Part shown: positions 18,130-39,832 of the stretch, piece after piece | Numbering within the stretch: position 1 is the first letter of the stretch | Layout of the letters: the number at the start of each line of letters is the position of its first letter | Assembly: GCF_000419585.1 (NCBI RefSeq) | Contig: NZ_ATTH01000001.1 | Coordinates: forward strand, 890,005-954,004 | Direction: 5' to 3' | Length of the DNA: 64,000 bases | From: Salisaeta longa DSM 21114 | Lineage (GTDB): Bacteria > Bacteroidota > Rhodothermia > Rhodothermales > Salinibacteraceae | Notes under the pieces: generated by a model | The model's input: the letters and a program-made list of their open reading frames with translations, nothing else | What the model was told of the DNA's origin: nothing | Database searches by the model: none | Translations under genes and position numbers: made by a program

Positions 18130-21100
18130 TTGCCCCTCCGCACCGTGCCCACACCCATACTGTTCGACAAAGCCGTCGACAACCGCAGCCTGTTCTCCGA
18201 CCACTACCTCGCCGAGCGCTTCCCGGAACGAGATGACGTACAGGCGCTCCACGACGATGCGGACGCGGCATATGCCGATGTCTGCGCGCTGTACGCGAAG
18301 CACGCGGCGCACACAAGAAACTGGAACGAGAGCCAGACGGAGGATCAGTTCATCCGGCCGGTGCTCGACATCCTCGGATGGGCCCGCGAGGTGCAGCCGC
18401 ATGCGCAACGCCAGGGCCGCCGGGGACGCCCCGACTATGCCCTCTTCCGCTCGGCCGAGCGCAAAGAAACCGCCCGCCAGCAATCCAATGACGATGCAAC
18501 GGACCTCTTTCGTTACGCCGATGCCGTCGCCGACGCCAAGTACTGGGGCCGCCCGCTCGATGGCCCGGCGCCCGCTCCCGGCCGCGACGGCCGCGCAAAG
18601 ATGCGCCAGGAAAACCCGTCGTTCCAGATCATTGACTACGTCACCCTCACCGGCGTCGCATGGGGCGTACTCACCAACGGCTCTCACTGGCGGCTCTACT
18701 ACGAAAAGGCCCCGTCCCGCCTCGAAACGTACCTGGAGATCAACCTCGAACACATCTGCCGCCTGGCCCAGGGCACGGCCGAGGAACAGTCCGAAGCCCG
18801 GCACGCCTTCCGCCTATTTTATGCGCTGTTCCGCGCCGCCGCGCACACCCCAACCCCCCAAGGCCCCACCTTCCTGGAGGATGTGTACGCCGCCTCCGAC
18901 CGCTACGCCGAGGAGCTGGAGGCCGAACTCAAAGATCGCATCTTCGATCAGGTCTTTCTCGAACTGGCCACCGGACTGTACGAAAATCATCGCCGCGAGC
19001 ACAATCCAGACGACCCCGAAGCCGATCTGGAGGCCGTCTACCGTGCCACGCTGCGCCTGCTCTACCGGCTGTTGTTCCTCCTATACGCCGAATCGCGCAC
19101 CCTGCTGCCACTCGACAATCCCGGCTACCAGAAGCACAGCCTCACCCGCCTCGCCACCCGCGCCCAACGCGCCCTGGCCGGCGGCAGCCCGCTCAGCGAT
19201 CGCCACTCCGATTTCTGGAACGACCTCCAGGCGCTCGTGCGCACCATCGACAAGGGCGACCCCACATTCGATGTGCCGGCGTACAACGGCGGCCTGTTCG
19301 ACACCACCAATCCGGCCAACGCCTTTCTCGACGACCACACCATCGGCCAACGCTACATCGTCCGCGCGCTCGTCAACCTCACCGCTGTTGACCCCCACAC
19401 CAACCCCACCGGGCCGCAGGTGGATTACAAGGCGCTGGACGTCCGCCAGCTCGGCTCCATCTACGAAGGGCTGCTCGAACACCGCCTGGTGCGCACCGAC
19501 GACGGAGCGCTCGACCTGCAAACGGACAAGGGCGAGCGCAAAAAGACCGGATCGTACTACACGCCGCATTACATCGTGGAGTACATCGTGGAGCACACGC
19601 TCGGCCCTATCGTGGAGCGCCGCATCGAGCAATTTGCTGCGGCCATGGCGCGCATCGCGGAGATCATGGACGGACGGGCCCCCACCGACCGCGGCGTCCG
19701 GGCCAAGCTCGACACGCCGCGTCGCAAGGCCCTCAACGCGCTGCTGACTGTGCGCGTGTGCGACCCGGCGATGGGCTCCGGCCACTTCCTCGTGCACGCG
19801 GCCGACTATCTCGCCGAACAGTTCGCACAGATCCTTAGCCGCTACCCGGAAAACAACCCGGTCACGGAATATCTGGCGGAGATCCGCGAACGCATCCTGC
19901 AAAGCCTCCAGCGCCAAGGCATTAGCCCCGAGGCCATTTCGGCCAGCACCCGCCTGCGCGATACGTCGCTCCTGAAGCGCCTCGTCATGAAGCGCTGCAT
20001 CTACGGCGTGGACCTCAACCCGATGGCGGTGGAACTGGCCAAGGTGAGCCTGTGGCTGCACTCGTTCACCGTGGGCGCACCGCTTTCCTTCCTCGACCAT
20101 CACCTGAAGGCGGGCAACTCGCTGATTGGGGCCGATGTGGAGGCCGTGATGGATGCCATTCAGAGCGACCTGTTCGGCAACATTCGCGGCGAGATACTGC
20201 GCGGCACCCAGTTCTTGCAGGACGCGGCCTTTAACACGGATGCGACGCTCACGGATGTTGAAGAAAGCGCGACGGCGTTCCGCGCGTATCAGGACAAGAT
20301 GGCGCCGTACAAGCGGCTGCTGGATCTGTGGACGGCGCAGCACTTCGACGCGCCCAAGGGCCGTACGCTGGTGCGCGATTATGCCCGTGAGGTGATCGAA
20401 GCGTACCGAACGGACGGCGGTGCGGTGCTGGAGGAATTTCCGGACACGGTAGCCACGGCCGAGCGCGTTGCCCAGGAGAAGCGCGTCTTCCACTGGCAGC
20501 TGGAGTTTCCCGAAGTCTATTACGATCTGGACTCCAGCAAACGCCGCTCCAATCCCGGATTTGACGCGGTGATTGGGAATCCGCCGTATGTGCGCATGGA
20601 AGCATTCAAAGACATGAAGCACTTCCTACGGAGCAAATACGACGTGTACGCCGAGCGGATGGATCTCTACGGCTACTTTGTTGAGCAAGCCGTTGGACTC
20701 TTGGCTCACGGACAGCGCCTCGGATTTATCGTGTCGAACAAGTGGATGCGGGCCAATTACGGAACGCCCATTCAAGAACTGATCAAAGAATATGCGACCG
20801 TTCAGCAGGCGATTGATTTTGGTGACCTGCCTGTGTTCCAGGCCACCGTGTATCCACTGATCCTCATTCTTTCGAAAGGCACCGATCCCGATGCACAAGG
20901 CTGTTCTGCACAGATCCCTCATCTGGCGTTCGATAGCCTGAACACAATCGTGAATCAGGTTGGCGTCTCCTTCTCGCAAGCACAACTCCACGAAATCGGC
21001 TGGGCACTTCTTGGCAATCCCGGCCTCGACGTCGTTGCGAAGATGAAGACGCAAGCCGTCCCGCTTCGGGAGTACGTTGGTGGATCGCCTCTCCGTGGAA

Positions 21101-22467
21101 TCGTCAGCGGGTTAAACGATGCTTTCATCATTAGCCGGGAAACGCGAGACCGCCTGATTGACAGAGATGAAAAAAGTGAAGAGGTTCTCTATCCAGTTCG
21201 AACGGGACGCGACGTTCGGCGCTACGCACTGCGCGATCCGGGAACCTATCTGATCTACACGAAGCACGGCGTTGACATCGACCGATACCCGGCCATTAAA
21301 GCGCATTTGCAAGCGTTTCGGTCGGATCTTGAAGGCCGCGCCACCGATCAGGAATGGTACGAATTGCAGCAGCCGCAGGCAGCCTACGAGGAGGCTTTCA
21401 AACAGCCGAAGATCATCAATCCAGACCTGGCGGAGAAAGGACGATTCCATCTGGACCGGAAAGGCATTTTCCCGACGAACAAGATCTATTCGCTCCCAAC
21501 AGATGATGCCTACCTACTCGCCATTCTCAATTCTCAACTCGCCGATTTCTATCTCAAAGCCACCAGTGTTCAGTACCGGGGCGATTATTTGCAATTGCTG
21601 GGACAGTTTGTTGAACAAGTCCCCATCCGCGACATCGCCTTCACCACCCCGGCGGACGAACGCACCGCCCACGCCGAAGCCGCCATCGCCGCCTACGAGG
21701 CCGCCCGCGATGCCGACGCCGGCCCGACCGTCTACGCCGTGCTGGAGGCCGTTGACGCGCACCTCACCGCCGACCCCGAGCGGGCCGACGTCGTCCACGA
21801 CCTGCTGGCGCACCTCGCCCGCGAGATGACGCGCCTGAAGGCAGAGCGCAGCACCTACCACCTCGACCTCACCGACTACGTCCCCGAGCCCACCGCCGCC
21901 ACCGGGCGTCCGCTCGTCGACTTCGGACGCTACCAGCCCGTCCCCGGCGTGCAACAATCCATGCTAGCCGCCACCGCTGCGACCTATGACGGGCTGCGCA
22001 TCGGCACGCTCTCGGCCACCCGCACCGACGCCGCCGTCACCCTCCGCGCCACCGCCCGCTACAAGCCCGCCGCTGACGACGACCTCCCGGACGACGCGCT
22101 GGACCGCTGGGGCTACCACGAAACCGACCCAGTGGACGTCTGCACCCTGCACGGCTGCACCGACCTGGAAGCGGCCCTCGTCGTCCACTGGATCGACGTG
22201 CTCAACGCCCACGGCAGCGGCTACGGCGGCTACCGCGACAACGCCACCAAAACCATCTCCCTGCTCGACCGCTTGCACGCCGCCCGCTTCCCCGATCCCA
22301 CCGACGACGCCATTGCCCGTCAGCTTCGCCCGTTCCTCAACAACGCTGCCGAGGCCGCCCGGCTCGACCGCCACCTCGCCTTCACCGATGCCCTCATCGA
22401 CCGCATCGTGTACCGCCTCTATGGCCTGACCGATGAGGAGGTTGCGGTGGTGGAGGGGCGGGGGTGA
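18130..22467 (+). CDS. Single-chain type II restriction-modification enzyme (Eco57I/MmeI-like)
   Basis: 1445 residues. The N-terminus is a PD-(D/E)XK nuclease domain: RGRPDYALF near residue 101 and ADAKYW near 134-139 supply P-D and DxK. The middle is an amino-methyltransferase: GSYYTPHYIVEYIVEHTLGP, motif I DPAMGSGHF at about 545, and motif IV NPPY at about 817, followed by a large target-recognition region ending in helices (IVYRLYGLTDEEV). One chain thus should modify adenine and cut DNA (type IIG/IIL). The start is uncertain: TTG 18130 is given, GTG 18145 is equally possible, and no ribosome site helps. It stands alone, with no separate S or R gene, and begins the defence patch. Confidence 0.88.
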   Translation: MPLRTVPTPILFDKAVDNRSLFSDHYLAERFPERDDVQALHDDADAAYADVCALYAKHAAHTRNWNESQTEDQFIRPVLDILGWAREVQPHAQRQGRRGRPDYALFRSAERKETARQQSNDDATDLFRYADAVADAKYWGRPLDGPAPAPGRDGRAKMRQENPSFQIIDYVTLTGVAWGVLTNGSHWRLYYEKAPSRLETYLEINLEHICRLAQGTAEEQSEARHAFRLFYALFRAAAHTPTPQGPTFLEDVYAASDRYAEELEAELKDRIFDQVFLELATGLYENHRREHNPDDPEADLEAVYRATLRLLYRLLFLLYAESRTLLPLDNPGYQKHSLTRLATRAQRALAGGSPLSDRHSDFWNDLQALVRTIDKGDPTFDVPAYNGGLFDTTNPANAFLDDHTIGQRYIVRALVNLTAVDPHTNPTGPQVDYKALDVRQLGSIYEGLLEHRLVRTDDGALDLQTDKGERKKTGSYYTPHYIVEYIVEHTLGPIVERRIEQFAAAMARIAEIMDGRAPTDRGVRAKLDTPRRKALNALLTVRVCDPAMGSGHFLVHAADYLAEQFAQILSRYPENNPVTEYLAEIRERILQSLQRQGISPEAISASTRLRDTSLLKRLVMKRCIYGVDLNPMAVELAKVSLWLHSFTVGAPLSFLDHHLKAGNSLIGADVEAVMDAIQSDLFGNIRGEILRGTQFLQDAAFNTDATLTDVEESATAFRAYQDKMAPYKRLLDLWTAQHFDAPKGRTLVRDYAREVIEAYRTDGGAVLEEFPDTVATAERVAQEKRVFHWQLEFPEVYYDLDSSKRRSNPGFDAVIGNPPYVRMEAFKDMKHFLRSKYDVYAERMDLYGYFVEQAVGLLAHGQRLGFIVSNKWMRANYGTPIQELIKEYATVQQAIDFGDLPVFQATVYPLILILSKGTDPDAQGCSAQIPHLAFDSLNTIVNQVGVSFSQAQLHEIGWALLGNPGLDVVAKMKTQAVPLREYVGGSPLRGIVSGLNDAFIISRETRDRLIDRDEKSEEVLYPVRTGRDVRRYALRDPGTYLIYTKHGVDIDRYPAIKAHLQAFRSDLEGRATDQEWYELQQPQAAYEEAFKQPKIINPDLAEKGRFHLDRKGIFPTNKIYSLPTDDAYLLAILNSQLADFYLKATSVQYRGDYLQLLGQFVEQVPIRDIAFTTPADERTAHAEAAIAAYEAARDADAGPTVYAVLEAVDAHLTADPERADVVHDLLAHLAREMTRLKAERSTYHLDLTDYVPEPTAATGRPLVDFGRYQPVPGVQQSMLAATAATYDGLRIGTLSATRTDAAVTLRATARYKPAADDDLPDDALDRWGYHETDPVDVCTLHGCTDLEAALVVHWIDVLNAHGSGYGGYRDNATKTISLLDRLHAARFPDPTDDAIARQLRPFLNNAAEAARLDRHLAFTDALIDRIVYRLYGLTDEEVAVVEGRG

Positions 22468-22499
22468 CCGTCGCAGTTCCTTCATCTTCGGTTAGAAAC

Positions 22500-22528
22500 T
22501 TGCAATTGATTAGCATATACACTAATAT
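22500..22528 (+). promoter_or_regulatory. Putative promoter/operator of the toxin-antitoxin-chaperone operon
   Basis: TTGCAA (22500-22505), 17 bp, then TAATAT (22523-22528), ending 9 bp before the HigB-like start. An inverted repeat ATTAG...CTAAT (22509-22526) overlaps the -10 and would suit an XRE-type autorepressor. A second AT-rich inverted pair TATAAT/ATTATA (23005-23030) lies before the antitoxin gene. Confidence 0.4.
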
Positions 22529-22537
22529 CCGGGCGAC

Positions 22538-22993
22538 ATGTCACAAAGCACCCGTGAGTTCAGTCTTGTTCATGCGCTCCCCAAAGAGAAGAGGAGCCGC
22601 CATCATGAGCGCGTGATTGTAGCGCTTCGCTCACGGGCCCATGGAGATGATGCGTCTTGGTCCTGTCCGTACCATGAGCACCTTCGAAGCAAAAAAGTGC
22701 GTTCAAACAAGCAACTGAAAAAACGTATCCTGAAGATGCTAACGATGATTGCCAGAGTCGGCGAATCATACTATAACAAAGAACCCAGGCATCTTCGGGA
22801 TGTTGGAGATGACCTCTGGGAATTGAAGCCAAAAGGGCATCGTCTTTTGATGTTTAAGGACGATCAAGTTAGCACATTCACCAAGCCGTGTTGGATTATT
22901 TTGGACGCATTTAAGAAGCCCTCCGAATCAAAGCAGCGTCGTTTTATCAGAGAAGCAAAATCCACCATGAGAAATTACTTTGAGTCAAAATAA
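22538..22993 (+). CDS. HigB/RelE-like toxin
   Basis: 151 residues, basic. The C-terminal half has the HigB/Gp49 pattern: a helix pair with basic residues, then DVGDDLWELKPKGHRLLMF and SRHHERV-like basic N-terminus. RelE-fold HigB toxins cleave mRNA at the ribosome. It is longer than typical HigB (about 100), with an N-terminal extension of about 60. It is followed after 42 bp by an XRE antitoxin and then a SecB-like gene. GC is clearly lower than in the flanking R-M gene, so the module was probably acquired. Confidence 0.72.
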   Translation: MSQSTREFSLVHALPKEKRSRHHERVIVALRSRAHGDDASWSCPYHEHLRSKKVRSNKQLKKRILKMLTMIARVGESYYNKEPRHLRDVGDDLWELKPKGHRLLMFKDDQVSTFTKPCWIILDAFKKPSESKQRRFIREAKSTMRNYFESK

Positions 22994-23035
22994 TACGCCT
23001 CTACTATAATCTAGAAAACAGAAAATTATACTATT

Positions 23036-23578
23036 GTGGATACACAAAGCAACCACGACATGGCCAATGTTGACCCGATGCCCGGCGACATCGAAGAGCT
23101 ATTCGAGGATTTGGAGGAAACGCCCGAAGACATTGCCTCAGACTTGATGGATCTGGTTCGATATCAGATCGGGCGCCGTCTTGAAGAGTATGGATGGACG
23201 CAGGAAGATCTGGCAGAAGCCATGGGAGTAAAACCTCCTACGGTAAGTCGTCTGCTCAACAGCGAGAATCCAACGCTGCTATCTATTGCAAAAATGGCAA
23301 AAGCACTCGACTTGGCGGTTCCCGTACTGAAGTTCGTGCCAAAAGAGGAGATGGAAGACCAGACCGACGAAGTGAAGTCGTTTGTCTGTAGCGAAAAGAA
23401 CGGAGCGGGATGGTGGCCCGTGACGCGGCGGCGTTCGTCGCATGTGCGCAACCGAATGCGCGAGTTCATCCAGACGGAAGTACGATCCGCCGGACGTGTC
23501 CAGCCGCCGTCCATTGAAGCAGCTGAGCACATTCCCTTTGACACCTACGCAACGCTGCAAGAGCAAGAAACGATTTAA
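23036..23578 (+). CDS. XRE-family antitoxin (HigA-like)
   Basis: 180 residues from GTG 23036 (ATG 23060 is possible). The HTH is RRLEEYGWTQEDLAEAMG then VKPPTVSRLLNSENPTLLSI, a classic lambda-repressor-type domain at about residues 45-100. The tail is charged and helical and would hold the toxin-binding and chaperone-addiction parts. It would neutralise the HigB-like product and repress the operon. In chaperone-dependent TA systems the antitoxin C-terminus carries the chaperone-addiction region; here the antitoxin tail is about 80 residues after the HTH and could play that role. Confidence 0.8.
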   Translation: MDTQSNHDMANVDPMPGDIEELFEDLEETPEDIASDLMDLVRYQIGRRLEEYGWTQEDLAEAMGVKPPTVSRLLNSENPTLLSIAKMAKALDLAVPVLKFVPKEEMEDQTDEVKSFVCSEKNGAGWWPVTRRRSSHVRNRMREFIQTEVRSAGRVQPPSIEAAEHIPFDTYATLQEQETI

Positions 23579-23581
23579 GCG

Positions 23582-24145
23582 ATGATCTCCCCCGTTCAGA
23601 TGCAGAGCTTCGACCTTGTCGAATCTCATTTCTCAGCGAATCCCGCCTACCAACCGTCAGAAGAGGGAGGTACGCTGAAGCCAACATTTTACGTTCGCGG
23701 TCAACGGGTCTCTCCAGACTTTCCTCCCGAAACGTCTGAAGAAAAAAACATCGTCCAGATTGACCTTTCGACGGAGCGTCTCTCTCGTTCGGAGCCCAAA
23801 GGGGGCACCGAGCAGTTCGATATCTTCCTGTACGTAGGGATTAACACGGTATCCAAGGCCATTCAAGAGACGATGCCATACCAGATTGAAACGGTTACAC
23901 TGGGACGATTTTCCGCCAACAATGTCCCTCCAGCGACAGAAGAGGAGGAGAGGGGTCGCGTGCTGGACATTATCCGAGTGAACGGTGCTTCCATGCTGTA
24001 CGGGGGTCTGAGGCGTATTATTCAGCGTCAAACAACATCGCATCGATACCCATTCTTGCTGCTCCCTGGAATTAATCTACGAGAGGTTGTAGAGTGGGAA
24101 AAAACACACGATGTAGAAGGACCGCTTCCTGCTCCCAACCCATGA
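23582..24145 (+). CDS. SecB-like chaperone of a toxin-antitoxin-chaperone module
   Basis: 187 residues, starting 3 bp after the antitoxin stop, so co-translated. The first part is beta-rich (IVQIDLSTERLSR, FDIFLYVGINTVSKAI). The end has the SecB signature shape: VNGASMLYGGLRRIIQRQTT then HRYPFLLLPGINLREVV, equivalent to the YARELI..L...G.FP.LLLPPVNF pattern of SecB and SecB-like proteins. With HigB-like and HigA-like genes upstream this reproduces the TAC order known from mycobacteria (higB, higA, secB-like). It should bind and stabilise the antitoxin. SecB assignment is by motif only. Confidence 0.7.
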   Translation: MISPVQMQSFDLVESHFSANPAYQPSEEGGTLKPTFYVRGQRVSPDFPPETSEEKNIVQIDLSTERLSRSEPKGGTEQFDIFLYVGINTVSKAIQETMPYQIETVTLGRFSANNVPPATEEEERGRVLDIIRVNGASMLYGGLRRIIQRQTTSHRYPFLLLPGINLREVVEWEKTHDVEGPLPAPNP

Positions 24146-24330
24146 GCAGATTGAAACTTCGAGACGCATTGACGGAAGACTTCTTTGAAAAGCACGACCT
24201 GGATTTTCAGCCACTAGAGAGCTTTAATCAGGGTGCGATTGGGCATCGCAGACGCTGATGCGTGTACCGACTCTATGGGGTGACAAGCGTGGAGAGACCT
24301 CTTCTTTTTCTGATCACAAAAGACGACCGC
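24142..24330 (+). pseudogene. Decayed gene between TAC module and nuclease gene
   Basis: A 38-codon frame (24142-24258) overlaps the chaperone stop by 4 bp (ATGA) and reads MSRLKLRDALTEDFFEKHDL before ending in TGA. In the same frame just after the stop the sequence reads CVYRLYGVTSVERP, very like the end of the R-M enzyme (IVYRLYGLTDEEV). The simplest view is a gene with its centre deleted, joining its first codons to the tail of a methyltransferase. The short frame could still be expressed by coupling. Confidence 0.4.
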
Positions 24331-24334: not shown

Positions 24335-25339
24335 ATGAGCAACATCCATTACTTTCAGCGCTACTCGCAGCGTGAAAACGTCATCACCAACAACACGTTG
24401 CGGCTTTTTGCACAAATCTATAGCGACAGTCCCAGTCGCCTTGAACGGCTTTTGGAAGCCCTCGTTGATGGGGCGACCATTGACGTTGGGGTTCAGATGG
24501 AACAGCAATCTGCTGAGACCGACAGCATTCCCGATGGCGCGCTCACGCAATCCAGTTTCAAGATTGTCATCGAAACCAAGCGCTCTGACAGCTTCAGAAT
24601 CGACCAACTGATGCGTCATGCGAAGGCGCTTAACGACGCTCGGCAGGGCATTTTGATGTTGCTCCTCCCTGAAGTACCGGCTACTAAGGTAAAGGCGGCT
24701 GCAGAGCAGATTGCTGAGTATGACAAGTCCATCCAATTCGAAGCCGTGACGTTCAAGCAGGTCATTGATGTCCTCATTGGATCTGGCAAACTGATCGGCG
24801 ATCATGAAGAGCACCTTTTTCAACTTGTCGGAGACTACCGCAATTTCTGCTCGGGAGAAAATCTCCTTCCTACAGATGACCTCATGCGTGCCGTCCCGTG
24901 TGGGACGTCGCATAAGGACAACTTTGAGTACGATCTGTACTACCACCCCAGTTCACGTGGGTATCAGTCGCACCAGTACATCGGGATCTACTACAAAAGG
25001 AGCATTCGTGGAATTGGGAAGTTGGCGAAGACAGTCGAGACCGATCTTGTGGACGGCGAGTTGATCCTCCAGAACGGCGAGAGCCTCTCCGCGGATGAAG
25101 AACAGCGGATCCGAGGGGCAATCGAAGCAGGAAAGAAACATGGATACAGCCTCGACACCGACTGTGAATTCCTTCTCGTGGACACCTTCCACCCCACGAA
25201 CTTTAAGAAAGCCTCTTCTTACGGCATGATGGGGCCGCAGTATTTCTCCCTGCGTGACTATCTCGACGTGGAAGAGAACGAGCCGCTTCCCGACACAGAG
25301 ACCATTGCGGAGCAACTAAGAGAGATGTCGTGGGAATAG
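24335..25339 (+). CDS. PD-(D/E)XK-like nuclease-fold protein
   Basis: 334 residues, no close family recognised. Residues about 50-100 read DVGVQMEQQSAETDSIPDGAL then FKIVIETKRSDSF: PD ... IETK is the catalytic core pattern of PD-(D/E)XK nucleases. The C-terminal half has YDLYYHPSSRGYQSHQYIGI and ends FSLRDYLDVEENE, which could be a specificity or sensor part. It lies next to an R-M enzyme and TA module and may be part of the same defence patch, or a stand-alone restriction-like effector. Moderate AT-richness suggests transfer. Confidence 0.6.
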   Translation: MSNIHYFQRYSQRENVITNNTLRLFAQIYSDSPSRLERLLEALVDGATIDVGVQMEQQSAETDSIPDGALTQSSFKIVIETKRSDSFRIDQLMRHAKALNDARQGILMLLLPEVPATKVKAAAEQIAEYDKSIQFEAVTFKQVIDVLIGSGKLIGDHEEHLFQLVGDYRNFCSGENLLPTDDLMRAVPCGTSHKDNFEYDLYYHPSSRGYQSHQYIGIYYKRSIRGIGKLAKTVETDLVDGELILQNGESLSADEEQRIRGAIEAGKKHGYSLDTDCEFLLVDTFHPTNFKKASSYGMMGPQYFSLRDYLDVEENEPLPDTETIAEQLREMSWE

Positions 25340-28572: not shown

Positions 28573-28759
28573 AGCAGCAACTGGTTGATGAGAGCAAACG
28601 ACGGGCCTCTCATATTACCTGACGGCGGATGCGTTCTGTAAGCGGTACGTAAACCGCAACCGGCCGCCCCAGGATGTGGGCCGCGGGTGGGCGCCGCGCC
28701 GTCTTGTCACGGCGATGGACATAGGGTAGCGCTCAGGCACAGGGACGACGCGCCAAGGA

Positions 28760-29268
28760 CAATCCTCTTGGAATGGAGGCAAGACTTCCGACTTTGATGT
28801 GGAGCTTGAAAAAGCTTCTGCTGCCGAAGGTTGAGTTTCAATCCTCTTGGAATGGAGGCAAGACTTCCGACGAGGCCGTCGCGAAAGAACGGCGGAGCGC
28901 GCGCCAGTTCGGCCGTTTCAATCCTCTTGGAATGGAGGCAAGACTTCCGACTTGCGGATGTTGACAGGGGTTGGGTGACTCATAAGGATTAAGGTTTCAA
29001 TCCTCTTGGAATGGAGGCAAGACTTCCGACCACCCAGACCGGACAAATGATCGCAGGGAGTACACAACAGTTTCAATCCTCTTGGAATGGAGGCAAGACT
29101 TCCGACTCGACCGCGAGGACAAGCGGTCGAGGTATCTCAGCAGAGTCGGTCGGTTTCAATCCTCTTGGAATGGAGGCAAGACTTCCGACTAAATAGTTCT
29201 TCTTTCTTTCCTTGTTTTTTTTGTTATGATTGTTTCAATCCTCTTGGAATGGAGGCAAGACTTCCGAC
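28760..29268 (-). CRISPR. CRISPR array 1 (7 repeats, 6 spacers)
   Basis: A 37-bp repeat (plus strand: starts GTTTCAATCC, ends ACTTCCGAC) occurs at 28835, 28915, 28994, 29070, 29153 and 29232, with a seventh at 28760-28792 that lacks its first four bases. Spacers are 39-46 bp: 28793-28834, 28872-28914, 28952-28993, 29031-29069, 29107-29152, 29190-29231. Read on the minus strand the repeat ends ATTGAAAC, the usual crRNA 5' handle, and the leader is on the right (29269 on). The truncated repeat is therefore the oldest, trailer-end one. The newest spacer (29190-29231) is a very T-rich plus strand, unlike the others. Confidence 0.98.
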
Positions 29269-29800
29269 GGTACCTGAAAGAGAGGTGAATACCGGTGCGA
29301 AAGGCAGCGGTTGCGGCCGCTGCAGGCCGTTGGTCGTAGCACGGAGGCGTCATTTCCGCAGACCCTGTGCTAACATGCGCTTGCTTCATGGCTTTTAGTG
29401 AAGCCATCGTGAAGGCATTTTGCGCAACCCTATGTAAAAGAACACCTTGCGCGTGTGCCGCAGACCCCCCGCCTTGAGCGGACATTTTAGGTCTGCAACG
29501 CACGTTGAATTCAATGGCATAGCACTGATTTCAACGACACGCAAAAGCATGGTATATAAGCGGCTGGAGAATGTCAAGCGCCGCGGCCCGCTTTTTCTGT
29601 GCGGTGGGCTGACGGGCGCAGAGGGTTGCCCGGCTGCGGAGATTGCCCGGCTGGGGAGATTGCGCTTTCAAGCATGACCCAAGGGCCCCCACGTCGCCTT
29701 CGGCTCCTCGCAATGACAACAGTGGTTGATGTCAAAAACAAGGCGTCGATGGTTCAGATGGTTGTTCAGGGTGGTCTGCCCATCTGCACGCGCAACGCAC
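29269..29800 (-). promoter_or_regulatory. Leader of CRISPR array 1
   Basis: From GGTACCTGAAAGAGAGGTG onwards this 532-bp stretch is almost identical to the sequences following arrays 2 and 3. It has no gene. It carries the putative promoter 29549-29577. Its outer part overlaps a dispersed repeat family. Confidence 0.85.
29549..29577 (-). promoter_or_regulatory. Putative pre-crRNA promoter, array 1
   Basis: On the minus strand TTGACA (29572-29577), 17 bp, then TACCAT (29549-29554). It is positionally conserved in all three leaders, about 280 bp before the first repeat. Confidence 0.5.
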
Positions 29801-30254: not shown

Positions 30255-31331
30255 ATGCCTACCGATGCTCCTCGCCCATCCACCGACAACTCCGTGCCAG
30301 CAGACGAGCCCTCCGTCTCCGGCACGTCCGCAACAGCCTCCAGCGACGTGCGACCGATTCGATGGATTGAGAACGAAGGTCTGCTCCGCGACGAGGGCGT
30401 GTTGCTTGGGCTCGCCGGCATGAGCGAAGAGCTGGCGCACAAAATTGACGTCATCCGGTCGTACTTTGCGCAGCACGAAGAAGCCGTGCGCCGGGGGCAT
30501 GCCCAGCTTGAAGCCCGCCATGCGCGGATTGAGGAGCAGATAGCCGACGTCACCGAACAGCTTGCCACGCTCGACCGCCAGATCGAGGCGCCGTCCATTC
30601 CCGCTGTAGACTGCCCCGACGGGGTGGGGCGTCATACCTTGTTGCGTTACGTGGTGGGAGCCGTGCTCACGCTCGCGCTGTGCGGCGCAACCCTCGTCTT
30701 TGTGCACACGCTGCTGGCTCCCTTATTTGCCAGGGCCTGGTGGGTAACCGCAAGCGTAGGCGGGGTAGGCTTCTTTGTAGCTTTTCAGCCCACCTCGTGG
30801 ATGTACACCAACCGTGCCGCGCATCAGGCCCCATCGGATGCCCCCGAGCCCTGGAAGACCCAATTGGCAACGTTTGGGTTGCCCGTAGCAGCAGCGTTGT
30901 TCGTGAGCGTATGGACGTACGAACCCCTTGGCGCGCTAAAGAGCATCAGCGTGTTTGTATTTCTTGCCTTCGCATTCCTGTTTGGCGGACAGCTGCTCCT
31001 CAGCCTGTTGCCGCGGCTGTCGCTGCTCCGCCGGGTGCTGTGGCACGACGTGCGCGTGTGGTGGGCGCGCCGGCAGGCCCGCAAGCGCCGCCGCCAGCTC
31101 CGCGAGCAAACGCTCGGCCCGTTGCAGGATCAGGACGCCTGGCTGCAGGAGGAAAAGGCCCGGCTGCGCACCCCCGCAACGGTAGCCGCAGAGCGCGACG
31201 CATGCATCGCCACCCTCCGCAGCGAATACGCCCTAGCGCGCCAGGCCATCGAGGCCGGCATCCTCAGCGCGCGCACCGCCGATCAGATCCTACGCACCAG
31301 CCCCAACCCCACAAATGCGAGAATGGATTAG
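30255..31331 (+). CDS. Coiled-coil four-helix membrane protein, subunit A of three-gene cassette
   Basis: 358 residues, no family recognised. Layout: disordered Ser/Asp/Pro start (1-35), coiled coil at about 60-115 (HEEAVRRGHAQLEARHARIE), then four TM segments (LLRYVVGAVLTLALCGATLV; WWVTASVGGVGFFVAF; TFGLPVAAALFVSVWTY; ISVFVFLAFAFLFGGQLLL), then a highly basic helical tail (RRQARKRRRQLREQ). Termini are probably cytoplasmic. The next gene overlaps its stop by 17 bp and has the same layout, so the two probably form a heteromer. It lies in front of the cas operon and in the same direction, 450 bp beyond the leader of array 1. Confidence 0.72.
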   Translation: MPTDAPRPSTDNSVPADEPSVSGTSATASSDVRPIRWIENEGLLRDEGVLLGLAGMSEELAHKIDVIRSYFAQHEEAVRRGHAQLEARHARIEEQIADVTEQLATLDRQIEAPSIPAVDCPDGVGRHTLLRYVVGAVLTLALCGATLVFVHTLLAPLFARAWWVTASVGGVGFFVAFQPTSWMYTNRAAHQAPSDAPEPWKTQLATFGLPVAAALFVSVWTYEPLGALKSISVFVFLAFAFLFGGQLLLSLLPRLSLLRRVLWHDVRVWWARRQARKRRRQLREQTLGPLQDQDAWLQEEKARLRTPATVAAERDACIATLRSEYALARQAIEAGILSARTADQILRTSPNPTNARMD

Positions 31332-32940
31332 GAACCAGTGGAACGACTGGGTTGGCCGCAACGCCCCCGCCGATGCCTCGCCGGAGGCCGCCGACAAGGA
31401 GACGCCGGCGCCCGCAGCAGGCGATGATTCGGGGCCGGCCACTGCCGAAGACCCTGCGCCGCTTACGCACCGGTCGCGACGCGCCCCCAACGAGTTGCTC
31501 GGTTACACCTACACGCTACGTACAAAGGACGAGCCGAACCCCGAGCGGCCTTTTGCACACGGCTTTGTGGACGGACTGGAGCAGGTGGAGCGCGCGCCGT
31601 TTGAGCGGCTGGTGACCCTCTCGGAGGAAGAGCAGCGGTTGACCGGAGCGCTCAACGCACTGCGCGAGCGACGCGCCACGCTAGAGACCTACCGCGACAC
31701 GCACCGGTCGAAGCGCGAGGCCATTGCCCGTGCCACCGACGAGCTGGCGTACGTAACCGACGACCTGGAAGCCGCCGAGGCCCGCGCCGCCGCGCTGCAA
31801 GAAAAGGTGGAGGCCACCGCGCCGCACGACCCCGCGCCCGAAGCGCGCGAACACGCGCCCCGGCGGGGGTCCATCGCGTATGCGCTGCTGTATAGCATCG
31901 CCGGACTCGTCTTTATCGCGGGCGACGTAATCATGTCGCGGGAGGTTGTGTCGCGGGCGCTGCGCCTACAGGGCGAGGTAGAGCCGTGGATCTTTGCCGT
32001 GGGCTTGGCGATGCTGGCGGTGCTCATGAAGCCCGCCTACGACCGGCTCGTGGAAAAGCCCTACTGGGAGGGGCGAACGACCGTCTTCCGCCGTGTCATT
32101 GTGGGCGGCGCGTTGGCGGCGGCGGTAACGCTCGGCGTGCTTGGCGGCTTCCGCGCCTTTGCGTTCGAAACCAACCAGACGATTCGCCGCTTGCAAAGCG
32201 AGCAGCAGAGTGTCGTACAGCAGGGCAACGTGGAGGCTGCAACAGCCATTGGCCAACAGGTGTCGCAGTTGCAGGAGAGCATTGCCGGTAGCTGGTGGGG
32301 CTTTCTGTCGTTTGTGCTTTCGGGCGTACTCTTTGCCGCCGCTGGGGCCGTGTGTTTGGGCATTGGCCTACATCACGGGCGCGACTGGTACCACCGATCG
32401 TTGCGTCCTTTGTGGATGCAACGTAAGCAGAAAAAGGCCCATCGGCAGCATCAGGAAAAGCTCCAGACGGCAAAGGCCGCACGCGACGCCCTGAAAGACA
32501 AGATGCGGCATCTCACAACCGAGATCACCGGCGCCCAAGCCGCCCTAGAGGCCCTTCCCCCGCTCGACGAAGTGCAGGCGTCCTTAAAAGACCTGCGGCG
32601 CGAGGCCGAGCGCCTGCGCGCCGCCCGCGCCCTTGCACGCAGCAATGCCGGCATCGACGCCTATCGCAACGGGTATGCCCTGGCAAACGGCATGTTTGAG
32701 ACATCGAGCCCCGACGACACCGCCACAGAGCATGTAACGTCGAGCCGCATCGCGGGCGACGGCAGCGCCACCGATCCGCCGCTCGCGCCCAACGATCCGG
32801 CGGCCCCGGAACCTGCGGACGGCGATGATGACGATGCAGCCGCAGACAACAAACCCGCGGCCATGGACCAGAACCGCACCACAAACAAGCGACGCCCCTT
32901 CCTGGCGCTGCGCGATGCCATCGCCAACCACCGCCCATAG
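31315..32940 (+). CDS. Coiled-coil four-helix membrane protein, subunit B
   Basis: 541 residues, overlapping the previous gene by 17 bp. Layout: disordered A/P/D-rich start, long coiled coil at about 95-165 (ERRATLETYRDTHRSKREAI), then four TM segments (IAYALLYSIAGLVFIAGDVI; PWIFAVGLAMLAVLMKPAYD; RRVIVGGALAAAVTLGVLGG; GFLSFVLSGVLFAAAGAVCL). A periplasmic helical loop lies between TM3 and TM4 (QTIRRLQSEQQSVVQQGNVE), followed by a second coiled coil and an acidic tail. The same order as subunit A, but with longer coils, suggests partner proteins of one membrane complex. Function is unknown. Confidence 0.72.
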   Translation: MREWIRNQWNDWVGRNAPADASPEAADKETPAPAAGDDSGPATAEDPAPLTHRSRRAPNELLGYTYTLRTKDEPNPERPFAHGFVDGLEQVERAPFERLVTLSEEEQRLTGALNALRERRATLETYRDTHRSKREAIARATDELAYVTDDLEAAEARAAALQEKVEATAPHDPAPEAREHAPRRGSIAYALLYSIAGLVFIAGDVIMSREVVSRALRLQGEVEPWIFAVGLAMLAVLMKPAYDRLVEKPYWEGRTTVFRRVIVGGALAAAVTLGVLGGFRAFAFETNQTIRRLQSEQQSVVQQGNVEAATAIGQQVSQLQESIAGSWWGFLSFVLSGVLFAAAGAVCLGIGLHHGRDWYHRSLRPLWMQRKQKKAHRQHQEKLQTAKAARDALKDKMRHLTTEITGAQAALEALPPLDEVQASLKDLRREAERLRAARALARSNAGIDAYRNGYALANGMFETSSPDDTATEHVTSSRIAGDGSATDPPLAPNDPAAPEPADGDDDDAAADNKPAAMDQNRTTNKRRPFLALRDAIANHRP

Positions 32941-32989
32941 GGTCGTCCGGTTCTCCCGTTTTACTCCGTACGTTCTCTTTCCCCAAGCG

Positions 32990-33799
32990 ATGACCATGCC
33001 TCGTTTTTTGTCTCGCATGCGCACGCTCATCTGTCTTGCCGCCATGCTTTTCGTTGCGGGGGCCTGCAACGGCACCCCCGATCCAGAGCACATCGACGTG
33101 TCTACCCCCGGCGTTCAGCAGGTGCTGGTGTTTGTGGACGCAAGCGCAAGCGCCGGTAACGTCTCCACATTGCCCAGCGTTTATCGCGACTCGCTTCGGG
33201 CCGTGATCAAAAAGCGGCTTACCGAGCCCCGCGACCGCATCAGCATCTTTCCTGTGCACGCCAAGACGACCAGCAAGGTGGGGCGGTGGGACATGCGCAA
33301 CACCGTACGTCGCCCGAAGTGGTCTTCCTTTGCGCAAGACCGGCGGTCGCGCAAGCTGATGTACGAAAGCAAGGTGCAGTCTTTTCTCAAACGCGCCCAG
33401 GAGCAGGCCGTCCGGCACGCCCGTGCCCTATACACCGACCGCAATTTTGAGCAATGGACCGACCTGTGGGGAACGCTGCAGGTTATCAGCGAAGAAGCGC
33501 AGCCCAAGAAGGGCCCCGTACGCGTGTACTACTTCAGCGATATGTTTGAGAGCGTACCCGGCGCCAAGCGTCGCAACTTTGAGCGTGTGCCGCCCACAAA
33601 CAAAGCGCAAGCCCAGCGGTGGGCCGCGCGCGACGCGGAGCGCATCAAGCAGCAATTGTCGCTGCAGCCCTCGGTGCTTCGGAACGTGAAGGTGCGCGTC
33701 CTGCCCGGCCCGCTGGCTGCCAAAGACCACGCCCTGGCCGTCAAGATGTACTGGATGCGTCTGTTTGAGGCGCTGGGCATGCAGGCCACCTACAACTGA
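32990..33799 (+). CDS. VWA-like lipoprotein, subunit C
   Basis: 269 residues from MTMPRFLSRM. The lipobox is LFVAGAC, so it is lipid-anchored and periplasmic or outer-membrane. A VWA-like fold is suggested by QQVLVFVDASASAGNVS (DxSxS MIDAS start), then DSLRAVIKKRLTEPRDRISI, then the later strand VRVYYFSDMFES, which would supply the third metal-binding acid. The last part is basic and helical. It starts 50 bp after subunit B. The set (two coiled-coil membrane proteins and a VWA lipoprotein) suggests an envelope-spanning complex. No known system was matched. Confidence 0.7.
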   Translation: MTMPRFLSRMRTLICLAAMLFVAGACNGTPDPEHIDVSTPGVQQVLVFVDASASAGNVSTLPSVYRDSLRAVIKKRLTEPRDRISIFPVHAKTTSKVGRWDMRNTVRRPKWSSFAQDRRSRKLMYESKVQSFLKRAQEQAVRHARALYTDRNFEQWTDLWGTLQVISEEAQPKKGPVRVYYFSDMFESVPGAKRRNFERVPPTNKAQAQRWAARDAERIKQQLSLQPSVLRNVKVRVLPGPLAAKDHALAVKMYWMRLFEALGMQATYN

Positions 33800-33844
33800 C
33801 GAGCGCGCACGCACGCCGCAGCAATGGTCATGGGCATTTTTTTC

Positions 33845-33873
33845 TTGACACTCCAGATGCTACGGCATAAATT
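33845..33873 (+). promoter_or_regulatory. Putative promoter of the type III-D operon
   Basis: TTGACA (33845-33850), 17 bp, then TAAATT (33868-33873), giving a 5' leader of about 110 nt before cas10. The same TTGACA-17-TAxxxT form appears in the three array leaders. It lies just after the VWA gene, so the membrane cassette and the cas operon are probably separate transcripts. Confidence 0.55.
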
Positions 33874-33991
33874 AATTACCGGTTTTATTGCCAAATAGCC
33901 TTTTGTACGTGTTTCCGTAGCCTCACAGGGTTAAAGCACGTGGAAGTAGTCTTTCCTATCTCGTTACCGCTTCCCCTATCCTGCTCCAATT

Positions 33992-35629
33992 ATGGACGAG
34001 CAATTTTCGCATCTTGTACAAGTCGAAATTGGTGGTGTACAATCATACATCTTCAATGGAAGCCGGCTCCGAGAGTGGCGGGGGGCCAGTGCACTGCTCG
34101 ACAAGGCAGAGCGCGTCGACATTTCGACAACCATAGCGGATCTGTCTGACCAAGCAACGATTTTGCGTCAGGGGGGCGGTGTTGTGGTGATCGGTGTGCA
34201 TCCTGGCGGCGATCCGTCTCGGGTACAACAAGCCATCACGGATGCTTATCGCCGCGCAGCACCTGGCGCCGATGTGTATGGTGCGCAGATACCGCTGTCC
34301 GGCACCACCGCCAAAGAAGTGCAAGCAGCACTTTCGAAACTGGCGTTTGCGGTGGAGCGCAATCGCGGGGTAAGCCTGGCACCTGATATGCACGGTGCCC
34401 TTCTCGGTCCTATGGAGCGTCCATGCGATAGCTGTGGAGAACGGCCGGCTGCTGTGGCTACTGAAATTGCAGACGATGGGCGTTTGGTTTGTACCATCTG
34501 CGACCACAAAGGGCGGTACGGGGGCAACGTGCGCCGGGGAGACGCATCGGCGAGCGTTCTAGAGCGCTTCCAACGGTATTTGGAGACGCAAGACGAAGAC
34601 GCAGCCGCAGGTTTCCGGGTACAGCCTAAGCACATAGCCTCGAACCTGCCTGATGACTTAAACGCCATCGCGGAAACCGGAGATGCGCTTGCTCTCATTC
34701 AAGCAGATGGAAACAGCCTTGGCAAAACCGTACAGTCCCTTACATCTCTTGCGCAGTATGAAGCATTGGCCGACCGCATTGCACGCGCTGTAGAGGAATC
34801 CGTGTTCGAGACGCTTGCCCAGCACGGCCCTCAGCCCAGAGCAAACGGAAAAGCCGTGCTTCCGTGGGAGATTCTATTCCTTGGCGGCGATGACATCCTG
34901 ATTGCAACCGCCGATACCATTGCTGTCGACGTTATCTCGTCGCTTATACAAAGCATTGAGACACGAACACGCGAGGTTTTTGCAGCCCCGCCCTTGGATG
35001 CGCTCGACCGGTCGTTTTTGTCGGTGGGTGCCGGGCTCGTTGTTGCCGACGCCCACGTTCCCATTGCTACCCTGCGGACGCTGGCCCACGACCTGGAACG
35101 TGAAGCGAAAAAACGAACGTACAGGCGTCAGAACGAAAGCAAAGCCGATGCTGAAATCAGCACAGTTGACTTTCACCGAATCACAGGTTCGGGAAGTGCC
35201 TCCATCAACAAAATTAGGACGCAGGCCCTTACGCCGCAGCGCGCCGCAACATACGAGGCGGTGCAATTGACGAAACGGCCGTTTACTTTGGAAGAGTTAC
35301 GAGACGTTGTAGCAGTTGCAAATGCGTGGAAGTCTGCAGGCCTGCCAAACAACAAGCTGCACGCGCTCCGGCAAAGCGTATTCGAGAGCCCATCCGAGGC
35401 GATGCGTACCTGGACCCACACCGTCGGCCGCAGTTCAAGCCAACATGCTGAGGCTTGGATGGACTTCCATCGCTTATTGGAGTCCGCTGATGACGCTACT
35501 AGCATACGGCCTCCGTTTGTGATCACGGCGACGGACGGCGCTTCAGAAAACAGCGCAAATGGCGATAAGAAGTGCTTGGAGGCTGCTACGCCTTTGTTGG
35601 ATGTGCTTGACATCCACGCGCTTCTCTAG
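33992..35629 (+). CDS. cas10: Cas10, HD-less, type III-D
   Basis: 545 residues. The protein opens directly in the first Palm domain (HLVQVEIGGVQSYIFNGSRL), with no HD nuclease domain. A treble-clef zinc site follows (CDSCGE at 145-148, CTIC at 167-170). The second Palm/cyclase domain has the metal loop ALIQADGNSLGKTVQ (D at about 239) and GGDD at 298-301 (FLGGDDILIA). It should therefore make cyclic oligoadenylate when target RNA is bound, but not cut ssDNA. It ends with a helical D4-like domain. It is first in an operon of eleven genes. HD loss is known among III-D and some III-B Cas10 proteins. Confidence 0.92.
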   Translation: MDEQFSHLVQVEIGGVQSYIFNGSRLREWRGASALLDKAERVDISTTIADLSDQATILRQGGGVVVIGVHPGGDPSRVQQAITDAYRRAAPGADVYGAQIPLSGTTAKEVQAALSKLAFAVERNRGVSLAPDMHGALLGPMERPCDSCGERPAAVATEIADDGRLVCTICDHKGRYGGNVRRGDASASVLERFQRYLETQDEDAAAGFRVQPKHIASNLPDDLNAIAETGDALALIQADGNSLGKTVQSLTSLAQYEALADRIARAVEESVFETLAQHGPQPRANGKAVLPWEILFLGGDDILIATADTIAVDVISSLIQSIETRTREVFAAPPLDALDRSFLSVGAGLVVADAHVPIATLRTLAHDLEREAKKRTYRRQNESKADAEISTVDFHRITGSGSASINKIRTQALTPQRAATYEAVQLTKRPFTLEELRDVVAVANAWKSAGLPNNKLHALRQSVFESPSEAMRTWTHTVGRSSSQHAEAWMDFHRLLESADDATSIRPPFVITATDGASENSANGDKKCLEAATPLLDVLDIHALL

Positions 35630-35669
35630 TCCTCAGACGCCCAGTGCCCCCATACCTTTCGCCTAACCG

Positions 35670-36500
35670 ATGCCTATGTCTGATCTCCATCACGTTTCGA
35701 TAGGGCTGACGCTCGCCTTTGACGGTGCCACGCACCTTGGCACCGGACGGGCCGAGGGATTGCTCAACCGCACCGTGTCACGCAGCGCCAACGGGCAACC
35801 TTATGTCCCGGGATCGGCGCTCAAGGGCGCACTTCGCATGACTGCTGAACGCATCACCCAACAGTTAAACCACTGCTTGCATGCACCGGGGCTTTCGCCG
35901 TCGGAGCGCTTGGGCTATCAGCGGCGCGGGGACGCTATCCTCGATACGCCTTGCCGCGGGCCACGCCCTGAAGAGATGTGCCAGAGCGAGACGCCTTGCA
36001 TTGTGTGTCGCCTGTTTGGAAATGTGTTTACGGGCAGCCGTCTCCATGTCGATGACGCGTATCCCGTCTCCACCGCTTTCCAAAAGAGCCTTCAGAAATT
36101 ACGTGAGCGCCAGAATGATGGCGCCTCTGCGGGACGGTCCAGGTTTGGTACGGTCGACGTCATCACGCGGCTTTCCGTTGACCGGCGCCGCAAGGGTGCA
36201 AAGTCTGGTGCGCTATTCACCAGCGAATACAGCCGGCCCGAAATGCCTTTCGAAACCCGCATCGAAGGTTCCATTCCCCTGCATCCCCTTGGGGAAGATG
36301 GGGCGCCCGCTGAGCTGGTGCTGCTCGCCGCCACGTTGGCTGCCACTGATCAGGTTGGTGGTGAAGCGAGCACCGGGCATGGCCGCTGTACAATTAAAAC
36401 TGAAACGATCAAGGTCGACGGTACAGCACCGTCTTACGGTGTCGATGCCCTGTTAGCCAAGGAAGCGCTCGAACAGCTCGCCTGGTCGCGTCTCATATAG
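35670..36500 (+). CDS. Csm3/Csx7-like RAMP protein (Cas7)
   Basis: 276 residues. The RAMP core is YVPGSALKGALRMTAE, CIVCRLFGN (zinc CxxC), TVDVITRLSVDRRRKGAKSG with ALFTSEYS, and the Gly-rich end GGEASTGHGRCTIKTE. It is a backbone subunit that binds crRNA. The Asp that in Csm3 cuts target RNA every 6 nt lies about 12 residues before PY(I/V)PGS. Here that place reads LLNRTVSRS with Asn, so this copy is probably not a slicer. I chose ATG 35670; a second ATG is two codons on (MSDLHHV). Confidence 0.87.
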   Translation: MPMSDLHHVSIGLTLAFDGATHLGTGRAEGLLNRTVSRSANGQPYVPGSALKGALRMTAERITQQLNHCLHAPGLSPSERLGYQRRGDAILDTPCRGPRPEEMCQSETPCIVCRLFGNVFTGSRLHVDDAYPVSTAFQKSLQKLRERQNDGASAGRSRFGTVDVITRLSVDRRRKGAKSGALFTSEYSRPEMPFETRIEGSIPLHPLGEDGAPAELVLLAATLAATDQVGGEASTGHGRCTIKTETIKVDGTAPSYGVDALLAKEALEQLAWSRLI

Positions 36501-36554
36501 TCCGTTCGTCTGGGAGCGCCTGCTCATCTTATTTCTCTCTCGGTTCTCTGGAGT

Positions 36555-37826
36555 ATGAAAACGTATTGCCTTCGCCTCACCTTAACGTCGCCCCTAACGG
36601 TAAGCAGCAGCCGAGACAACTCGAATCGCTATGAAACGGAACGCTCGGTGCCGCCGGCCACCCTTCGCGGGGCACTTGCCGCTGTGATGAAACAGCATGA
36701 GACAGACGCAACGACGATGAACGCACTGTTTGGAGAGACCGGGTGCAGAACGAGTGCGCTCTGCCCCATCGCTCCCCACGCGCCTACGGAAGCATCCGTC
36801 GTGCCTGTGCCGCTCACCGTGCGGAGTTGCAAGTTCAAACCCGGCTTCCGCGCCGATGGCCAACATGGCGTTGAGGACGTGTTGGTGGCGGCGCTGCACT
36901 TTGCACTGCATGACGATGGCGGGGGGCTGTCGGATGCCCGTCAGTGCCGGCATCCGGAATGCACCCATGTGCTGAAAGCTATGAGCAACTTCACCCGGTA
37001 CAATCCGGAGGCAAACACCTGGCACAAGCAAGGAGCAAGCGACACCCGAATGCAAGCACATGTGGGCCTCGACCGGCGGCGGCGCGGCGCAGCGTCGGGC
37101 ATCCTCTATGCACGTGAGGTGCTGAGTGAGCAGACGACTACAAACCATGGCGATTCGCCCGCGCTGCATCCTACGACCATGCAAGCCCACGTGGCGATCC
37201 CCGAGGCCCACGCAACGACCCTTAGCGATGCCTTAACACCCGGAACGATCCTTCGCATTGGCGGCGATCGCTCCCGTGGGCTTGGGCGCTGCACGGTTGA
37301 ACACTTCGACACGGTATCCGCCCGTATGCCAGCCATCAGGGATCGTATTGAGGACTTCAATGCCGCCTGGAAGGCATCATTTGAGGGAACCAACCACCAG
37401 CCGAAAGACGGGGTGCTTGTCGTGCTAACACTCGAAACCCCCGCGCTCTTCGTTGACGCCATGCTCCGCCCCAATCTTGCGCCTGACGGCGCGGACCTGC
37501 TGCAAGCGGCTCAACCCAGCGCATCGGAAGCGGCTGAAGCCTTGGAAGCGCTGGCACCGGTCCATCAAATCGCGCGCCCCGTGTCGGTCCACGGATGGAA
37601 TGGCCTCGCCCGCTTCCCCCATGCTAGCGCACAGGGTTTGCAAGCCGGAAGCGTTCTCGTTTTCCGTGCGCACAATATCGACGAGCCCCTTCTCCGTGCA
37701 CTGGAGCATATCGAGACGCATGGCATCGGCTTGCAACGACACCTAGGGTACGGACGCACCCGCGTGTGCCTGCCGCTCCACACCGACGTTCATGAGCACA
37801 CCGCGCGTTCCGCTACGGCTCGTTAA
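36555..37826 (+). CDS. csx10: Csx10 RAMP protein, hallmark of subtype III-D
   Basis: 423 residues. Two RAMP folds: the first has LTLTSPLTVSSSRDNSNRYE, VPPATLRGALAAVM, then a zinc-like Cys/His region, then TILRIGGDRSRGLGRCTVEH, the Gly-rich loop typical of Csx10. The second has VLVVLTLETPALFVDAML and the end HGIGLQRHLGYGRTRVCLPL. Csx10 caps the III-D complex and takes the place of Csm4/Cmr3 holding the crRNA 5' handle. Together with Csx19 below it defines the subtype. The start 36555 fits the family. Confidence 0.85.
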   Translation: MKTYCLRLTLTSPLTVSSSRDNSNRYETERSVPPATLRGALAAVMKQHETDATTMNALFGETGCRTSALCPIAPHAPTEASVVPVPLTVRSCKFKPGFRADGQHGVEDVLVAALHFALHDDGGGLSDARQCRHPECTHVLKAMSNFTRYNPEANTWHKQGASDTRMQAHVGLDRRRRGAASGILYAREVLSEQTTTNHGDSPALHPTTMQAHVAIPEAHATTLSDALTPGTILRIGGDRSRGLGRCTVEHFDTVSARMPAIRDRIEDFNAAWKASFEGTNHQPKDGVLVVLTLETPALFVDAMLRPNLAPDGADLLQAAQPSASEAAEALEALAPVHQIARPVSVHGWNGLARFPHASAQGLQAGSVLVFRAHNIDEPLLRALEHIETHGIGLQRHLGYGRTRVCLPLHTDVHEHTARSATAR

Positions 37827-37869
37827 CATCTGGTCATACGCATTCTTTCAACGCCAACTTCCTCTTGCC

Positions 37870-38424
37870 ATGCCCGATTCCAAACAGCCCACCTACCGCG
37901 ATGCGCGCCAATATCTGCGGCGCCTCATTGACGAACAAATCGCAACGCGCAGTGATGCGATGTACATGTCTAAGCATTACAACGTGGCTGAACTCGGTGA
38001 AAGTGCCGCACAGATCTTTGACAAAACCCAGATGAATGGCCTGGAGCGTTTGGCGCTTAGCGCTTCTACGTTCAGTGAGATTGCGAACTTCATCAAGTCG
38101 CAATGCGGGCGCACAACGAGTATTGGAGACGACTGGCGTGAACCGCTGCCTCGGTTTGGCGAATCGTTTGGCCCCTTCCTTTACAAAAGGCTCAGTGAAA
38201 AGGTCATCAGCACGGTAGACTCAAATACCAACGATGTGATTGATGCCCTAAAAAAGGGGAAATTGCTCAAGCCACTATTCCATCCAGATGAAAAGAAAAA
38301 GGATGGCATAAAGCGCCTCGAAGAGGAAATCAGCCGCCAACTGCGTGTCGGCTACACCCGCGCGTACATCAGCCATGTGGTGGCCCACTATAATTACGCC
38401 AAGAGCTTCGAGATGTCGAAGTAA
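37870..38424 (+). CDS. Helical protein of type III-D operon, unknown
   Basis: 184 residues from MPDSKQPTY, 43 bp after the csx10 stop (a frame from 37792 would overlap csx10 and start poorly). It is wholly helical: ARQYLRRLIDEQIATRSDAM, LERLALSASTFSEIANFIKS, IKRLEEEISRQLRV, ending YISHVVAHYNYAKSFE. No match is known to me. The position and alpha content suggest a small (Cas11-like) subunit or an accessory part of the effector complex. The final HYNYAK region is similar in feel to Csm2/Cmr5 ends, but this is not proof. Confidence 0.55.
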   Translation: MPDSKQPTYRDARQYLRRLIDEQIATRSDAMYMSKHYNVAELGESAAQIFDKTQMNGLERLALSASTFSEIANFIKSQCGRTTSIGDDWREPLPRFGESFGPFLYKRLSEKVISTVDSNTNDVIDALKKGKLLKPLFHPDEKKKDGIKRLEEEISRQLRVGYTRAYISHVVAHYNYAKSFEMSK

Positions 38425-38462
38425 CGTGCACGCGTTATTCTCCCCTCAACCGCATACGCCTC

Positions 38463-38888: not shown

Positions 38889-38926
38889 GTCACTGCTTCA
38901 ATCCGTCACTTAAACACCAACCACTT

Positions 38927-39787: not shown

Positions 39788-39832
39788 TGCCTTCTCATAC
39801 TCACGTTCTCTCATTCAAGAACAACTGAATCT

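Follow-up and report, generated by a model that had tools for sequence, protein, structure and literature searches.

Three adjacent genes of Salisaeta longa DSM 21114 encode a toxin-antitoxin-chaperone (TAC) module of the HigBA type (HigBAC), and SecB-type TACs recur beside restriction-modification (R-M) genes in the Bacteroidota. The case for a TAC is strong, and the module is probably a phage-triggered abortive switch that forms a second line behind the type IIG-like restriction enzyme encoded just upstream. TACs of this kind are already known; the linkage to R-M genes is the new part of the finding, and it is a statistical pattern drawn from small numbers, with a distance limit set post hoc. 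The literature searched, which was thin on subscription journals, yielded no paper on such linkage, and an earlier mention is possible. A toxin-antitoxin system within R-M genes is not itself new, since DarTG2 is described as lying within an R-M system of type I (PMC12255303).

The module lies at positions 22538-24145 of the window, the whole 64,000-nucleotide stretch of DNA that was analyzed (Table 1). The first-pass annotation of this DNA had described three tightly linked genes in TAC order, AT-richer than their neighbors and 70 bp downstream of a type IIG-like enzyme, and the data agree on each point. All three genes are on the + strand with intergenic gaps of 42 and 3 bases, 70 bases separate the end of the R-M ORF from the start of the toxin gene, and the module has a G+C content of 0.503, lower than the window as a whole (0.613) and the type IIG gene (0.633); a value this low occurs in only 0.6% of sliding windows as long as the module. 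The antitoxin ORF starts with GTG, with an in-frame ATG 24 bases further on. The gap between the R-M gene and the toxin is the likely place of the TAC promoter; a promoter scan of this gap returned no sigma-70 consensus, and its palindromes are of 6 bp only. An Rfam scan of positions 17000-30000 gave no match. The genes that flank the module, tested via ndh, are not conserved in the family.

Table 1. Positions of the TAC genes, their neighbors and other features in the window.
Feature	Position	Strand	Details
Type IIG-like R-M enzyme, neighbor and possibly functional partner	18130..22467	+	1445 aa
A+T-rich gap, R-M gene to toxin	22468..22537	.	70 bp, G+C 0.44
HigB-family (Gp49/RelE-like) toxin	22538..22993	+	151 aa
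HigA-like antitoxin	23036..23578	+	180 aa; HTH residues 47-93
Antitoxin C-terminal extension, candidate ChAD region	23393..23575	+	residues 120-180, includes GWWPVTRRR
SecB-like TAC chaperone (HigC)	23582..24145	+	187 aa
Short ORF	24142..24258		38 residues
ORF 3' of the module	24335..25339		334 residues
CRISPR array	28756..29270		7 copies
RAMP-like ORFs	~30255..47605		GSALKGALR motifs
CRISPR array	47650..47840		3 copies
CRISPR array	50596..50946		5 copies
CRISPR array	62384..62416		1 copy

The short ORF begins with an ATGA start over the chaperone stop codon and is possibly the remnant of a fourth gene. The longer ORF 3' of the module had no Pfam, NCBIfam or PADLOC match; by eye, its FKIVIETK segment resembles a PD-(D/E)xK nuclease core. 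The CRISPR arrays share one 37-nt repeat and, together with the RAMP-like ORFs (judged by eye), probably constitute a type III CRISPR-Cas locus; the TAC is 5 kb away.

Based on its modeled structure and on profile comparisons, the third product is a SecB-fold protein. The single sequence matched Pfam SecB with an E of 0.0028, under the curated cut-off, and retrieved no SecB from the PDB by sequence search. The top PDB match by Foldseek of an AlphaFold model built from an alignment of relatives (pLDDT 69, pTM 0.69) was 5mtw_C (E 1.2e-6), which is the Mycobacterium tuberculosis Rv1957 chaperone with a ChAD peptide (PDB entry); SecB or Rv1957 accounted for all of the top 16 chains, and the next ones were uncharacterized streptococcal proteins. 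VIA-align placed the model on Escherichia coli SecB (1qyn_D) with Z 11.8 (132 residues, 3.0 A) and on 5mtw_C with Z 8.7 (127 residues, 3.8 A), with unrelated rows beginning at Z 6.0; sequence identity to Rv1957 is 13-15%. A profile of 14 relatives matched the SecB proteins of Haemophilus influenzae (8e-10) and E. coli (1.4e-6), and 10 of these 14 proteins reach E <= 0.01 against Pfam SecB. These fold and profile matches bear out the SecB likeness that the first-pass annotation had read from the segment YPFLLLPGINL, which lies at the C terminus of the product and, in the alignment, corresponds to the SecB-like ‘LP’ end of its relatives.

Alignments were needed to recover these relatives, as a search with the single protein across 394 genomes of the phylum gave no match beyond the S. 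longa genome itself. SecB-like matches occur in 9 of 244 genomes of the class (E <= 0.01, one false) and in 13 of 296 genomes of the phylum (E <= 0.001); L024 (E 0.007) was rejected, being a sugar kinase by sequence. Chaperone sequence searches led almost always to toxin-antitoxin-SecB operons, including MqsR-MqsA-SecB in Burkholderia, viral contigs and a Cupriavidus plasmid, and HigB-HTH-SecB in Methylibium. The toxin beside the SecB relative is of the HigB type in L006, L008, L018, L022, L050 and L051, MqsR-like in L004, L007, L009 and L010, PDC-M64-like in L020 and L025 (scanned) and in L017 and L021 (similar by eye), and CmdT-like in L052 and L053 (PD-T4-9_A, 9e-82 and 7e-67). S. longa itself has a second, divergent TAC (L034, at C1:2670281), which holds the other SecB-like gene of the genome. 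The SecB-like ORF of G105 (E 5.6e-4) has no visible toxin or antitoxin, and G238 has no clear HTH antitoxin. Taken together, the SecB fold, the SecB profile match and the presence of nearly all relatives in toxin-antitoxin operons amount to more than chance.

At the profile level, the toxin is a member of the HigB family. Its single sequence gave Pfam Gp49 with an E of 0.006 and PDB 6af3 with 0.38, while a profile of seven TAC HigBs, including that of the window, matched the HigB structure 6af3 at 7.4e-9 (next match, 0.32), with R102 and K127 invariant across the seven aligned proteins. The AF2 model of the toxin has low confidence (pLDDT 66); RelE-type toxins led the list in a fold search with it, with a non-significant best E of 0.45. 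Close relatives of the toxin were found in the S. longa genome only (1 of 60 related genomes), with none in viral contigs or plasmids. A CmdT-type ADP-ribosyltransferase (PD-T4-9_A) was considered and rejected, given zero PADLOC families and the match to the HigB profile instead.

The antitoxin contains an HTH_3 domain (1.1e-11), matches HipB/HigA structures by sequence and matches the HTH model of PADLOC PDC-M64 (5e-9); close relatives are limited to two genomes among the 394, one of them that of S. longa, with none in viral contigs or plasmids. A C-terminal antitoxin extension (ChAD) and chaperone dependence are described as the hallmark of TACs, with variable ChAD sequence (PMC5105189, PMC6377645, and for the variability PMC5105189). 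The first-pass annotation had proposed examining the antitoxin tail for such a chaperone-addiction pattern, and an extension of 61 residues past the HTH core was found. Across 15 TAC loci the antitoxins have 13-66 residues past the common HTH core (median 53), compared with 0-11 (median 1) in the HigA proteins of 18 SecB-less loci (p 1e-6). The controls were Gp49 toxins without a SecB neighbor in the 17 genomes with a SecB-like match; 19 loci were fetched and gave 18 antitoxins, L083 being left out since it had no antitoxin ORF. Also left out of this test were L019 and L029 (antitoxin without a found toxin), the MqsA-type L004, L005, L007, L009 and L010, the CmdTAC-like L052 and L053, and L056 and L057. 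The tail of the window antitoxin carries Trp-Trp and three Arg in GWWPVTRRR, and the ChAD peptide contacts reported for M. tuberculosis are W108, R110 and Y114 (PMC6377645). As a ChAD signature, the aromatic-basic 9-mer did not exceed shuffles (P 0.23), and there was no significant motif. TAC antitoxins more often end in Ala, Gly or Ser (12 of 15 vs. 6 of 18 controls, p 0.013), with ssrA-like ends such as YRLAG, YAMAG and KDIAA; the window antitoxin is without the small final residue typical of most. We regard residues 120-180 as a candidate ChAD region, judging from sequence.

The neighboring R-M gene encodes methylase and target-recognition parts in one chain (Pfam Eco57I, 6e-38; TaqI_C specificity domain, 2e-14), and among PADLOC models it matches DrmMI (7e-103, the better score) and REase_MTase_IIG (3e-71). 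The best hit in a search for an N-terminal nuclease domain was HSDR_N (E 0.023), below significance. Homologues of this enzyme are present in 43 of 238 genomes of the class, most without a TAC; a TAC beside the homologue was seen only in G000 and G406.

Linkage to R-M genes was assessed in 17 genomes of the phylum, with a methylase defined as a Pfam N6_Mtase or Eco57I match at E <= 1e-5 and an 8-kb limit that was set after the loci had been inspected. A methylase lies within 8 kb of 8 of 18 SecB loci and of none of 21 SecB-less Gp49 hits, and uniform placement would be expected to put 0.34 of the 18 SecB loci near one. A stricter count gave 7/16 vs. 0/19 (p 0.002), loci with at least 8 kb of contig on both flanks gave 6/14 vs. 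0/11 (p 0.02), and leaving the window out of the latter gave 5/13 vs. 0/11 (p 0.04). G105 and G238 were kept in the 18-locus count, and G105 was left out of one of the stricter counts. Since only two Pfam families were searched, the methylase of G503, which is of type III, escaped detection and does not enter the count; an R-M methylase is absent within 8 kb of 9 of the 18 loci. With G503 included, eight of the nine TACs with linkage lie downstream of the methylase and share its strand (p 1e-4 against 1/4).

The R-M genes at these loci are diverse. Split type IIG genes precede HigB-HigA-SecB by 53 bases in G406, and HsdR-HsdM-HsdS precede it by 131 bases in G195 and by one 276-residue gene in G259. 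Type III Mod and Res are followed after 91 bases by a TAC in G503, and an MmeI-like enzyme is followed by a CmdTAC-like set in G053; G171 has a divergent type I R-M system, and G297 has a type IIG-like gene ~4 kb upstream. At the second S. longa TAC (L034, C1:2661000-2679000), HsdM, a Fic-like C-terminal-domain protein and HsdS are followed after 131 bases by toxin, antitoxin (with a double HTH) and SecB, then AbiEi, AbiEii and HsdR, so that the TAC and AbiEi/AbiEii sit between hsdS and hsdR, inside a type I R-M operon. The genes called Hsd in L027, L032 and L050, and some of those in L034, were named by eye from their sequences, and the N6_Mtase matches support these names. Outside the phylum, MqsA-SecB lies between a DNA methyltransferase and drmA in a DISARM-annotated operon on the Thiodictyon plasmid pTs485 (L058), near which a transposase is inserted. 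This case is the exception among the non-Bacteroidota TACs, as no R-M neighbor was noticed in the stretches read for L004 and L006-L010. TACs without R-M neighbors also include L029, L031 and L053-L055. Because placement is on the same strand behind diverse R-M types and is absent from SecB-less pairs, the data suggest that chaperone-addicted toxins are repeatedly coupled to restriction.

An anti-phage function, at which the first-pass annotation had hinted, fits the sequence context and is likely by analogy with E. coli HigBAC and MqsRAC. MqsRAC and CmdTAC are both described as anti-phage (PMC9519451, PMC11618068). Chaperone dependence, mRNA cleavage, a phage-protein trigger and cooperation with restriction would follow the model of studied relatives. 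The HigA tail would be unstructured, leaving HigA unstable unless bound by a tetramer of the SecB-like HigC, and HigC-bound HigA would neutralize HigB and repress the operon. A phage product that occupies or depletes HigC would lead to loss of HigA, and the freed HigB, a putative ribosome-linked mRNase, would halt translation and abort the infection. Restriction would cut unmodified DNA early, with the TAC shutting down cells where phage escape restriction; placed 70 bp behind the type IIG enzyme, the module is most likely such a second line.

Mobility and clustering in islands are common to toxin-antitoxin and R-M genes, and the module could instead be a stress-response or addiction TAC that landed in a defense island, its nearness to R-M genes reflecting mobile selfish modules that pile up with no joint function. 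We give this reading a substantial chance, somewhat short of even. The difference in G+C content means that the module and the type IIG gene need not have arrived together, a TAC beside a homologue of that gene was seen in just two genomes, and because chaperone family members with ~21% identity are found downstream of R-M systems of unrelated type, the associations arose separately. However, SecB-less Gp49 loci should be equally mobile, yet none is near a methylase; orientation is also non-random, and the TACs between hsdS and hsdR and between a methylase and drmA speak against mere piling up. Those two operons, the same-strand positions 53-131 bp downstream of type I, IIG and III genes, and the DarTG2 precedent would fit a TAC that guards its R-M neighbor, freed by anti-restriction proteins or enzyme loss, or that stabilizes the cassette by addiction. 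Such a fail-safe seems unlikely, given the TACs without R-M neighbors and the known triggers, which in the reports are phage structural rather than anti-restriction proteins (PMC11980606, PMC11618068). It is very improbable that the third gene encodes a regular export SecB next to which the toxin-antitoxin pair lies by chance: while the modeled structure resembles E. coli SecB no less than Rv1957, the gene starts 3 bases after the antitoxin, its relatives are nearly all in toxin-antitoxin operons, its Pfam SecB score is under the family cut-off, and the other SecB-like gene of the genome is also in a TAC.

Beyond the preferred reading of an abortive switch behind restriction, we tentatively raise a broader one, in which SecB-type TACs and methylation-based systems (types I, IIG, MmeI-like and III R-M, and DISARM) would form a recurrent composite defense unit. 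The antitoxin would be a fuse tied to restriction, and phage that survive or disable restriction would set off HigB (or MqsR or CmdT). MqsRAC is reported to work together with McrBC against T2 (PMC10783111); the linkage offers a genomic counterpart to this synergy, and the loci provide a set for direct coupling tests.

Among known systems, the M. tuberculosis TAC (Rv1955-Rv1956-Rv1957) shares the toxin-antitoxin-chaperone order and, as described, an antitoxin C-terminal extension with Trp and Arg (PMC5105189, PMC6377645), and its chaperone is the best Foldseek match; it differs in its low chaperone identity and in its shorter tail (~42 residues as reported vs. 61 in the window). The PADLOC candidate PDC-M64, for which no paper was found and which is known by its PADLOC name, resembles the module through its HTH model, whereas the window toxin and chaperone fall short of its models. 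The remaining models find the toxins of L020 and L034 and the SecB proteins of L012 and L050; with toxin, HTH and SecB-like models that all match TAC parts, PDC-M64 is apparently another name for a TAC. CmdTAC/PD-T4-9 is reported to have a SecB-like third component and an unstable antitoxin (PMC11618068, PMC9519451), and its homologues at L052 and L053 carry distant members of the window chaperone family, but its toxin is described as an ADP-ribosyltransferase rather than a HigB. Its reported trigger is the T4 capsid protein (PMC11618068). HigBAC of E. coli C496 (Mets et al. 2024), likened here by description, combines a HigB toxin, a HigA antitoxin and a SecB-like HigC in one module, and the lambda major tail protein is reported to break the HigA-HigC contact, leading to release (PMC11980606); the window module, unlike it, sits behind a type IIG R-M gene. 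TACs are a young anti-phage class in which the trigger, in the cases described, is a phage virion protein.
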